In this document: positions 60,648 to 63,836 of the stretch, in pieces
Position numbering within the stretch: position 1 is the stretch's first letter
How the letters are laid out: every line of letters begins with the position of its first letter
Source: Sphaerochaetaceae bacterium
GTDB taxonomy: Bacteria; Spirochaetota; Spirochaetia; Sphaerochaetales; Sphaerochaetaceae
DNA length: 64,000 bases
Direction: 5' to 3'
Assembly: GCA_024699225.1 (NCBI GenBank)
Contig: JAILPZ010000012.1
Location: forward strand, 1-64,000
Translations under genes and position numbers: made by a program
Notes under the pieces: model-generated
The model's database searches: none
What the model saw: the letters and a program-made list of their open reading frames with translations, nothing else
Told to the model about the DNA's origin: nothing

Positions 60648-60974
60648 ATGGGATTTTTTGATTTTCTTAAGGGACCCGATATTAATGAGGGTGTAAAAGA
60701 ATGGAAGAGCACAGAAGGCTCAGTACTTCTGGATGTAAGAGAAAAAGATGAGTATGCAAGCGGCCACATCCCGGGAAGCATAAACGTACCCCTATCTTCC
60801 CTTGGAAGTGTTACAAAATATGTAAAGGACAAGGAGACACCGCTGTTTGTCCACTGTCTGAGCGGTGGCAGAAGCTCGTCTGCAACTGCATCACTTAAAA
60901 GTATGGGTTACACAAATGTAAAGAATATTGGCGGAATCAGTTCCTACAAGGGTGATATAGAGGTGCTCTCATGA
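60648..60974 (+). CDS. Cytosolic rhodanese
   Basis: A 108-residue single-domain rhodanese without a signal peptide. LLDVREKDEYASGHIPGSINVPLSSL is the family N-terminus and HCLSGGRSSSA holds the catalytic cysteine (about residue 67). AGGAAAAG precedes the ATG. It overlaps the start of the next gene by four bases. Confidence 0.9.
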   Translation: MGFFDFLKGPDINEGVKEWKSTEGSVLLDVREKDEYASGHIPGSINVPLSSLGSVTKYVKDKETPLFVHCLSGGRSSSATASLKSMGYTNVKNIGGISSYKGDIEVLS

Positions 60975-62662
60975 AAACAGTAATAGTTGGAGGAGTTGCA
61001 GGCGGTGCTACTGCTGCAGCAAGATTAAGACGTCTGGATGAGAATGCCCAGATAGTGGTTTTTGAAAAATCAGGCTATGTTTCATATGCAAACTGCGGCC
61101 TGCCGTACTTCATAGGCGGTGTTATAACAGACCGTGAGGATCTGACACTCCAGACTCCTCAGAGCTTTTACTCACGCTTTAGAATTGACGTTAAGACAAG
61201 CCATGAGGTCCTGGATATAGACAAGAACAAAAAGACCGTCACTGTTAAGGACCTTAAAAGCGGAAAAACGTTTGAGGAGAGTTATGACACACTCATCCTC
61301 TCTCCCGGAGCCAAACCGCTCAAGCCGGATCTCCCCGGAATAGACAGCCCGAAAATTTTTACTCTGAGAAATGTTGAAGACACCTTTGCCATTTATGATT
61401 TTGTTCAAAAACATAAACCCGAAAAGGCCGTGGTTATCGGTGGCGGTTATATTGGTCTTGAGACAGCCGAGAACCTTTATGAAAAAGGTCTGGAAGTCTC
61501 CGTCCTCCAGCGCCCTAAGCAGCTTATGAATACTCTGGACTATGACATGGCCACCTTTGTGCATGCAAAGCTCAGGGAGAAAGGAATAAAGCTCATGCTC
61601 GGCTGCAACGTTACGGGCTTTGAGGAAAAAGACAGCCATATTATTGTCACTACAGCCGACTCAGGAAATATAAGTGCAGACATGGTAATTCTTGCAATAG
61701 GAGTTGTTCCCGATACTGCTCTTGCAGATAAGGCAGGTCTTGAAAAAGGCGTTAAGGGCTGTATAAAGGTAAATTCCCACATGCAGAGCTCTGTTAAGGA
61801 TATTTATGCTGTAGGAGATGCTGTCGAAGTTACACACTTTGTAAGTAAGGAAAAAGCTTCAATTGCCCTTGCAGGTCCTGCAAACAAGCAGGGAAGAATT
61901 GCAGCAGACAACATCTGTGGCATACATTCAGAGTTTAAGGGCTCTATGGGTTCATCCATTATTAAGGTATTTGATTTAACAGTAGCCGGAACCGGTTTGA
62001 CTGAGAAGGCAGCCTTAAAGGCAGGACTTGAGTGTGAAAGCATAATTCTTGCCCCCTCTTCTCACGCCTCATACTATCCCGGAGCCAAAACCATGACACT
62101 GAAAGTTGTCTTTGAAAAGAAAACCGGACGTCTTTTGGGTGCCCAGGCCATAGGCAAGGAAGGCGTGGATAAGAGAATAGATGTTCTTGCAACAGCAATT
62201 ATGGCAGGCCTTGGCGCCGAGGATCTTAAAGACCTGGATCTCTGCTACGCTCCGCCGTTCTCATCCGCAAAGGACCCTGTGAATATGGCAGGTTTTGTTA
62301 TGGACAACATTCTCAGTGGCAGAATCAAACAGTTTCACTTTGAGGATGTAGATAAACTTCCGCGTGACGGTTCCGTGACACTGCTGGATACAAGAACCAC
62401 AGGAGAATACTCAAGAGGTCATGTTGAAGGGTTTATGAACATTCCTGTAGATGAACTTAGAGAGCGTCTTGGAGAGCTTGATAAAAGCAAAAAGATCTAT
62501 GTTATGTGCCAGAGCGGGCTTAGAAGTTACATTTCAACCTGTATTCTGAACAACAGTGGTTTTGATGCTTTTAATTTTGCAGGCGGCTACCGCTTCTACT
62601 CAGCTGTAAAAAACGAAATGGTCTGTGCAGAAAGCTCTCTGCCCTGCGGAATGGATAAGTAA
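60971..62662 (+). CDS. CoA disulfide reductase/polysulfide reductase with C-terminal rhodanese
   Basis: A 563-residue fusion. Residues 1 to about 440 are a FAD- and NAD(P)H-dependent pyridine-nucleotide-disulfide oxidoreductase: VIVGGVAGGATAAARLRR, the redox cysteine in YANCGLPYFIGG (about residue 43), VVIGGGYIGLETAENL and YAVGDAVEV. Residues about 460-563 form a rhodanese with the cysteine in VMCQSGLRS. Such fusions act as CoA disulfide or per/polysulfide reductases, reducing sulfane sulfur and keeping CoA thiols reduced. With two rhodaneses upstream the operon suggests sulfur or polysulfide handling. Confidence 0.92.
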   Translation: MKTVIVGGVAGGATAAARLRRLDENAQIVVFEKSGYVSYANCGLPYFIGGVITDREDLTLQTPQSFYSRFRIDVKTSHEVLDIDKNKKTVTVKDLKSGKTFEESYDTLILSPGAKPLKPDLPGIDSPKIFTLRNVEDTFAIYDFVQKHKPEKAVVIGGGYIGLETAENLYEKGLEVSVLQRPKQLMNTLDYDMATFVHAKLREKGIKLMLGCNVTGFEEKDSHIIVTTADSGNISADMVILAIGVVPDTALADKAGLEKGVKGCIKVNSHMQSSVKDIYAVGDAVEVTHFVSKEKASIALAGPANKQGRIAADNICGIHSEFKGSMGSSIIKVFDLTVAGTGLTEKAALKAGLECESIILAPSSHASYYPGAKTMTLKVVFEKKTGRLLGAQAIGKEGVDKRIDVLATAIMAGLGAEDLKDLDLCYAPPFSSAKDPVNMAGFVMDNILSGRIKQFHFEDVDKLPRDGSVTLLDTRTTGEYSRGHVEGFMNIPVDELRERLGELDKSKKIYVMCQSGLRSYISTCILNNSGFDAFNFAGGYRFYSAVKNEMVCAESSLPCGMDK

Positions 62663-62672
62663 TTTTTAGAAA

Positions 62673-62757
62673 AAATGCAGTCTATTCTGATTTTTTGAAT
62701 CCAAAGGTAAGATTTTGTTAAGCCTTTTGGAAGACTTTAATCATATAGACTGCATTT
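62673..62757. repeat. 85-base nested inverted repeat (possible structured RNA or terminator)
   Basis: A perfect 13-base inverted repeat (AAATGCAGTCTAT at 62673-62685 and ATAGACTGCATTT at 62745-62757) encloses a second pair (TGATT/AATCA) and a third (CCAAAGG at 62701-62707 with CCTTTTGG at 62723-62730). Together they fold into one extended hairpin in the gap between two convergent genes. No open reading frame lies inside. Confidence 0.7.
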
Positions 62758-62764
62758 CTCAAGA

Positions 62765-63220
62765 TCAGTCTTTTATAAGCTGCTTAATCCACATTTTCTC
62801 TCTGAGAGAAATCTTGCCGTCAATGGCACAGATAAGCATGCAAATAACAATAATATCGTCCTTAAGACTGTCACTGAGATGGCCTAATACATCTACCATC
62901 TCATTAACAAGTTTCTTAAGTTCTCTTGTCTCTGATGAGATTTTTCTTACAGCCTTCTTACAGGACTCGTAATCAATATTATCTCCAAAGAAAACATGAA
63001 GAGACGGATAGAGCAAGGCATATTCTTCCTCTGAGAGCTTTCCGTCAGCAACAACAGAAGCAATTATAAAAGAAGCATATACTTCCACGCCGGTTAACCC
63101 GTCTACAGAAACCGCAGAAAGAGCCGGAAGAACTTTAACGGACTTCTCGGTAAGAAGAGCTGAATATGTAAGAAGATCAGCTTCTTCAAAGATTTTACAA
63201 AGTTCATTAAATTCTTTCAT
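62765..63220 (-). CDS. TerB-like protein
   Basis: A 151-residue, mostly helical protein resembling TerB/tellurite-resistance-type domains: VADGKLSEEEYALLYP and CAIDGKISLREKMWIKQL repeat the typical acidic DGKxSxxE metal-binding motif. ATG 63220 follows GGGGAAC and lies just inside the end of the upstream DUF1269 gene, so the two are cotranscribed. The function of the family is not settled. Confidence 0.75.
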   Translation of the reverse strand: MKEFNELCKIFEEADLLTYSALLTEKSVKVLPALSAVSVDGLTGVEVYASFIIASVVADGKLSEEEYALLYPSLHVFFGDNIDYESCKKAVRKISSETRELKKLVNEMVDVLGHLSDSLKDDIIVICMLICAIDGKISLREKMWIKQLIKD

Positions 63221-63221
63221 A

Positions 63222-63836
63222 TCAGTTCCCCTTCTTTGCAAACTTGGCCTTAAGCTGTGCAGTATAGTCTTCAAGCTTATGCTTTACATCTTCTTTCTTT
63301 TCCTCAGCCATTCTCTTTCTGGCTTCCTTTTTGAGCTCTTTCTCTACTCTCTTAGCCTCTTCTACTTCAGCCATGACTTCAGCTGCGCTTTCTGAGTAGA
63401 TATCAACATCAACACCGTTAAACTCAGAATCAAAGCTGTTTTCTACACTCTCGCTTACAAGTGCTATTACTGCAGTCTCTCCGTCTGTAATAACTGATGA
63501 AACCTTTTCTATAACAGTCAGGTTTTCTCCTGCATCTCCTGCATCTACCAGAGAACCGGCAAAAGCTCCTGTTGAGCCTCCGAGAAGAACACCCATCGGG
63601 CCACCGAGGACACCTATGAATGCACCAATAAGCATGCCTTTAGATGTATCATTTGCTGTCTCGGTGCCCGTATCAAAAGATTCTCTGATACTTATGCTGT
63701 TACCTGTCTTTCTGATAATCATCATTTCTGATAAATCATAGTTCTTTTTCTCAATAAGACCGTTTTTAATATCTGAGAACAGCTTGTATGCCTCAGCTTC
63801 ATGCTTAAATACAACAACTTTTACTTTTTCTGCCAT
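63222..63836 (-). CDS. DUF1269-like membrane-associated protein
   Basis: A 204-residue protein. Residues 1-60 form an alpha/beta domain, a glycine-rich hydrophobic segment (KGMLIGAFIGVLGGPMGVLLGG, residues about 65-90) resembles the DUF1269 membrane hairpin, and the C-terminal third is a long, highly charged Lys/Glu coiled-coil. AGGAGG precedes the ATG. It leads a two-gene unit with the TerB-like gene and faces the TetR regulator gene, which probably controls it. Confidence 0.72.
   Translation of the reverse strand: MAEKVKVVVFKHEAEAYKLFSDIKNGLIEKKNYDLSEMMIIRKTGNSISIRESFDTGTETANDTSKGMLIGAFIGVLGGPMGVLLGGSTGAFAGSLVDAGDAGENLTVIEKVSSVITDGETAVIALVSESVENSFDSEFNGVDVDIYSESAAEVMAEVEEAKRVEKELKKEARKRMAEEKKEDVKHKLEDYTAQLKAKFAKKGN

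Follow-up and report, generated by a model that had tools for sequence, protein, structure and literature searches.

A nested hairpin between convergent genes of a Sphaerochaetaceae bacterium and its probable relation to a low-copy family of twin-hairpin repeats

The locus and its hairpin

The window (the whole 64,000-nt stretch analysed here) carries a plus-strand gene at 60971-62662, encoding a CoA-disulfide-reductase-like flavoprotein with a C-terminal rhodanese domain. It is faced by a minus-strand gene at 62765-63232, whose 155-residue product has no Pfam or NCBIfam match at 0.001 (TerB falls below threshold, E 0.094), and this gene is followed on the same strand by one for a DUF1269 protein (63222-63836). 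The open reading frames agree with the convergent arrangement described in the first-pass annotation. The gap between the two facing genes measures 102 bp and is mostly taken up by a hairpin element, in a genome sample whose convergent gaps have a median of 2 bp (simple ORF caller). Homologues of the 155-residue protein occur in 15 of the 138 family genomes, its own included, and none was found in the three other genomes of the genus.

The element is 85 nt long (62673-62757) and is assigned to neither strand. Its outer arms, AAATGCAGTCTAT (62673-62685) and ATAGACTGCATTT (62745-62757) as read on the plus strand, are 100% complementary over 13 nt and 59 nt apart. In the predicted fold TGATT (62688-62692) pairs with AATCA (62739-62743) as an inner stem, and an apical hairpin spans 62700-62731 around the centre ATTTTGTTAA. 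The element alone folds at -29.4 kcal/mol (z -5.42), a value equalled by none of 200 dinucleotide shuffles, and the minus strand with flanks included gives a z of -5.37. The hairpin is real, and the nested architecture first proposed for it holds, with perfect 13-nt arms and inner and apical stems that pair. The same proposal called the 13-base match unlikely by chance, which is partly so. Three pairs of perfect arms of at least 13 nt at spans of 50-130 nt occur in 401 kb of the genome, where 10 Markov-1 simulations gave none or one apiece (mean 0.4), and the arms by themselves are thus just moderately unlikely; what makes a chance origin implausible is a second copy in the same genome (BLAST E 3.4e-4).

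Both strands had been described as free of T-runs, which is incorrect for the minus strand. The AAAAAA at 62670-62675 of the plus strand reads there as TTTTTT at the end of the arm, with three of the Ts inside the outer stem, and is a possible U-tract for the minus-strand genes. On the plus strand the hairpin is followed by TTT and then CTC, with no longer T tract. Measured against the features of an intrinsic terminator, the element has a T6 after the stem on the minus strand and only TTT on the plus strand, and a scan confined to short loops (3-8 nt) lists no terminator here. In G001, a genome of the same genus whose flavoprotein orthologue is 70% identical, a canonical terminator (an 11-pair stem and then ATTTTTTT) stands directly 3' of that gene, at the position held by the hairpin in the window. 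The DUF1269 homologue comes next in G001 and directly faces the flavoprotein gene, the 155-residue gene being absent. From sequence and setting, the hairpin is probably the 3'-end or terminator hairpin of the convergent pair, and its T6 tract may let it end transcription of the minus-strand genes.

A free-standing small RNA, one of the options offered by the first-pass annotation, finds no support. The sole Rfam match in 62500-62900 at E<=1 is to a miRNA family and scores 20.8 bits, far under that family's gathering score of 90, and promoter-like sites are in no excess over shuffles. The homologue of the neighbouring gene was located at 17 loci in 14 other genomes; in the 150 bases behind it, read by eye at 14 of these loci, no copy of the hairpin was seen, and no DNA match to the region was found in 40 relatives.

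A family of twin hairpins

BLAST of the region against its own genome returns one other place, C55:13385-13430, which belongs to a full second element of the same layout (C55:13346-13430) with 53 of 85 columns identical to the window copy. This element has the outer ends TGCAGTCTATT...AGACTGCATTT and the same centre, ATTTTGTTAA. It is flanked by a plus-strand ORF with a terminator-like site on one side and by a minus-strand tRNA-Arg/tRNA-Pro pair with a terminator-like site on the other. The motif ATGCAGTCTAT occurs at three places in the genome, two of which are the window element itself; the third (C54:1222-1232) lacks a perfect partner arm and was rejected as a further copy.

A covariance model built from these two copies (R1) was run over the 139 genomes of the taxonomic family at E<=0.01. 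Beyond the home genome it matches four places, two each in G147 and G149, which belong to another genus, and all four are tandem twin hairpins. Such an element consists of two hairpins of about 36 nt, joined by a linker of 4-5 nt that often reads TTTTG, and is able to refold as a single nested hairpin. The units mostly end in (T/G)CAG...CTG(A/C), as in a clear example from G147 (L065/L216): TCAGCCCAGT...ACTGGGCTGA-TTTTG-TCAGTCCAAA...TTTGGACTGA. The apical centre of the window copy matches this TTTTG linker region, and the likeness is also seen between the C55 centre GGACTAATTTTGTTAATCC and its G147 counterpart GGACTGCTTTTGTCAGTCC.

Five twins were gathered from the home genome, one by an inverted-repeat scan (L059), two by a junction pattern (L214, L215) and two by a twin scan (L046, L058); all are built from TCAGT...ACTGA units, each 35-36 nt long, and linkers of 5 nt. 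A strict twin scan of the 401-kb sample yields six elements (three TCAGT, two TAAAC and one, L054, that is probably coding), compared with one in 20 pooled third-order Markov sets. This strict scan carries the claim; an initial de novo scan, with 27 elements in the genome and 5, 10 and 10 in Markov sets, contained many chance matches. The junction pattern was set aside as family evidence in its own right, being loose enough to match 91 of 138 genomes. Twins with TAAAC stems and the same layout lie at L044 5092-5167, L057 13079-13155 and L044 162-248, perhaps as a second stem type. A nested hairpin at L045 10217-10317 can be read as a twin whose stems are GGTGC-like and whose linker is CCAAAA, and a long AT-rich hairpin with a weak R1 match lies near a TAAAC twin (L057 12984-13044).

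A second model (R2) describes the twin form and derives from a 14-element alignment (A3). The twin structure is paired in 92% of the cells of this alignment, with both-side changes in 10 of 16 pairs and a covariation of 0.382 against 0.143 when shuffled; the nested structure is 87.5% paired, with both-side changes in nine pairs. These figures lean towards structure, as members were partly picked for pairing. By energy the nested fold is preferred for L267, L259, L274 and the C55 and window copies, and the twin fold for L272 and L276. Folding and alignment predict the window copy in the long, nested form only.

The R2 scan covered the 139 genomes at E<=0.01 with up to 34 candidates scored per genome, so its counts are lower bounds. 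The home genome has at least 17 strand matches at no fewer than nine places, of which four had no part in building the model. G147 and G149 have at least 19 strand matches each (at least 11 and at least 12 loci), G151 at least two matches and G003 at least one, a poor one. Among the candidates scored there is none in the other 134 of the 139 genomes, which include the congeneric G001 and G002 and all 75 high-quality genomes. A 16S piece on contig C11 has the look of Treponemataceae. All 35 R2 loci that were read are twin-like, the G003 locus poorly so. The proposed search for other copies at the same spacing points to a repeat family, with one more nested copy and related twin hairpins.

The window copy itself is not listed by R2 at E<=0.01, nor at E<=1 in the home sample, and the C55 copy scores 23.6 bits (E 0.069). 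The membership of the window copy therefore rests on R1 and on its likeness to C55. Its CAGT...ACTG outer arms and TTTTG-containing centre can form a nested hairpin, and it would be the most diverged member of the family. The failure of R2 to recover it would fit an ordinary bidirectional terminator peculiar to this locus, whose resemblance to other hairpins is chance convergence, as would the convergent genes, the T6 of the minus strand and the canonical terminator at the orthologous site of G001. Against this explanation, which the second copy already disfavours and which we regard as very unlikely, the C55 copy aligns across all 85 columns with 53 identical, and all four R1 matches outside the home genome are twin hairpins.

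Genomic places, orthologous sites and spread

Neighbouring genes were called with a simple ORF caller, and tRNA and 5S genes with Rfam and ARAGORN; two rows (L289, L294) are doubtful. Both neighbours are known for 32 of the 37 places (35 R2 loci plus the pair of nested copies), some of which are orthologous to one another: 17 are convergent, 14 tandem and one divergent. The sole divergent place (L296) is flanked by an ORF reading leftward and a tRNA-Leu gene reading rightward, and L277, divergent by ORFs alone, is scored as tandem owing to two tRNAs. Divergent gaps make up 6108 of 22458 intergenic bases (27%) in the home sample. A survey reports that stem-loops favour convergent regions in every bacterium studied (PMC1590033), and on that account the convergent bias of the family is not specific to it.

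Flanks were compared at 28 places, a set without the nine places read last. Fourteen of these have at least four Ts in the 7 nt next to the 3' end, six have at least four As just ahead of the 5' end, and ten show no TTT in the 6 nt next to the 3' end. With T-rich 3' flanks at those 14 places, a T6 in the window copy and a canonical terminator at its site in G001, the first-pass assertion that the element is not an ordinary terminator is unsupported. At C55, L283 and L277 the element is separated from its neighbouring gene by a canonical terminator, and L063 has one on its protein-gene side. With terminators already present at these four places, termination alone cannot account for the element there, nor is it likely to be the only role across the family.

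A supercoil-related role at the DNA level has been proposed for some REP/BIME elements. The twin hairpins could likewise be DNA sites (a cruciform, or a site for gyrase or a nucleoid protein) that absorb supercoils between convergent genes, and palindromic DNA near gene ends, partly beyond terminators, is in line with this. Beyond the arms and linker, the 14-member alignment contains a single invariant column (T61), and 14 of the 32 places are in tandem context; both facts speak against such a site, which appears improbable.

Position and sequence can be followed separately in eight orthologous comparisons, in all of which the position of the hairpin is retained. The hairpin is near-identical in four: L262/L263 (112 of 118 columns), L266/L258 (76 of 77), L275/L278 (72 of 77) and, by eye, L283/L293. 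In the other four it is clearly different. L272 and L276 share 42 of 77 columns and differ in stem type, in loci that are 88.7% identical across 3.1 kb. On the other side of the gene in that comparison, L272 and L281 share 51 of 79 columns and the stem type. L063 and L261 (G147 and G151), each with 5S rRNA on one side and the same protein gene on the other, share 41 of 118 columns. L283 and L277, which compare G147 with the home genome and so two genera, lie behind the same two-tRNA cluster with different genes on the far side and share 35 of 78 columns. Within G149, on contig C65, the two twins L276 and L281 flank a gene of 270 codons in the same orientation and are alike in 75 of 77 bases; the protein encoded between them looks nuclease-like by eye. 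Together with this pair, the eight comparisons indicate that a position can outlast replacement of its sequence and that copies can be alike within a genome, and the four near-identical cases indicate that sequence swapping is not general. The process behind the change may be conversion or repeated insertion.

The usual account of intergenic palindromic repeats is transposition followed by tolerance. Applied here, the twin hairpins would be mobile palindromes of REP/BIME or MITE type, spread by a transposase, tolerated in dead zones 3' of genes and devoid of host function. Their distribution is in keeping with this, being dispersed and patchy (five of 139 genomes among the candidates scored, and not G001 or G002), as are the variation of stem types between genomes and the G149 gene flanked by two similar copies. 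Genes of the Y1-transposase family (PF01797) are present in the g8 genomes, and on the orthologous contigs G147:C340 and G149:C62 one of them is 4.4-4.7 kb away from a twin. Against mobility, PF01797 has no match in the home genome (81% complete). In stretches of 1-2 kb at 13 of the 20 PF01797 matches of the g8 genomes there is no R2 twin at E<=1, and such stretches hold one weak R1 match (L253, E 2.6) and one junction-pattern match that is not a twin (L247). Direct repeats of at least 2 bp are found at the borders, themselves approximate, of none of the 28 places, where shuffled flanks are expected to give 0.81 at 3 bp or more. GTAG is found at one of the 28 places and CGTC at five, scattered (the linkers of three triple-unit places left out), and position is retained in the eight comparisons. 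On balance we think a purely mobile repeat rather unlikely, and mobility of the family is unproven. The MITE-like remnant suggested by the first-pass annotation came nearest of its options in that the evidence points to a repeat family; the lack of target duplications and of a Y1 transposase match in the home genome counts against the remainder of that suggestion.

With moderate confidence, we favour the reading of the window hairpin as a diverged, nested-form copy of a low-copy intergenic twin-hairpin repeat family that resides chiefly at gene 3' ends and between convergent genes. Selection would keep a hairpin at such sites, where it would act as a barrier to transcription or stabilise 3' ends, and the hairpin sequence could be overwritten from copies in the same genome through a conversion-like process. 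At the window locus the hairpin most likely serves the convergent pair as a terminator or 3'-end structure, above all the minus-strand genes with their T6. A broader proposal, that twin-hairpin repeats persist at fixed intergenic sites, have their sequence sometimes swapped wholesale between copies of one genome and spread by in-place overwriting and not by new insertion, is put forward tentatively and with considerable doubt. A hairpin can persist at its place across species, and in one case across genera, even as its sequence changes. Two questions are thereby separated: what maintains hairpins at the ends of genes, and by what their sequence is copied.

Comparison with known systems

Among the titles listed in literature searches, none concerns such a twin-hairpin repeat in Treponema or other spirochaetes. 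A pattern scan of public genomes gave three matches in unrelated bacteria, against about ten expected on a rough estimate, one of them with a weak R1 match (E 0.18). In viral contigs a loose pattern gave 114 matches, all scored with R1, the best at E 0.018 (L090) and the rest weaker or absent, and these were taken as chance. The junction pattern matched viral contigs three times, as one sequence on three contigs and with no R2 match, and collections of plasmids and phages gave no match.

Integron attC sites carry the core pair RYYYAAC/GTTRRRY. They share with the twin hairpins an imperfect palindrome, a similar size and a single-hairpin fold, but the core pair is found at the ends of none of the 28 twin places. 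Bidirectional intrinsic terminators resemble several members with GCAGTCT-type stems, in that their stems are preceded by A tracts and followed by T tracts and lie between convergent genes. The twin family differs from them in its long AT-rich loops, its two or three hairpins in a row and its repeat copies, and its members sometimes sit beyond a canonical terminator. MITEs are likewise small, non-coding and dispersed, with inverted terminal repeats, whereas the twin family has no target duplication at 28 places and no identified parent transposon.

The closest parallel is with REP/BIME elements and their TnpA-REP (RAYT) proteins. According to PMC3733652, these are short, dispersed intergenic palindromes, often dimeric, whose dimers may fold separately or as one large stem-loop, and CGTC repeats occur in Spirochaetes. 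The twin family differs in the order of its units, in the absence of a constant GTAG or CGTC end tag and in having no Y1 transposase match in the home genome (81% complete). Its copies there amount to at least nine R2 places plus two nested elements, whereas PMC2817692 gives a usual REP copy number above 100 per genome. Given the differing tag, unit order and copy number, the missing Y1 match and the missing target duplications, the family is filed neither as REP nor as MITE. The best reading is of repeats nearest to REP/BIME, as a REP-like variant of intergenic palindromic repeats.
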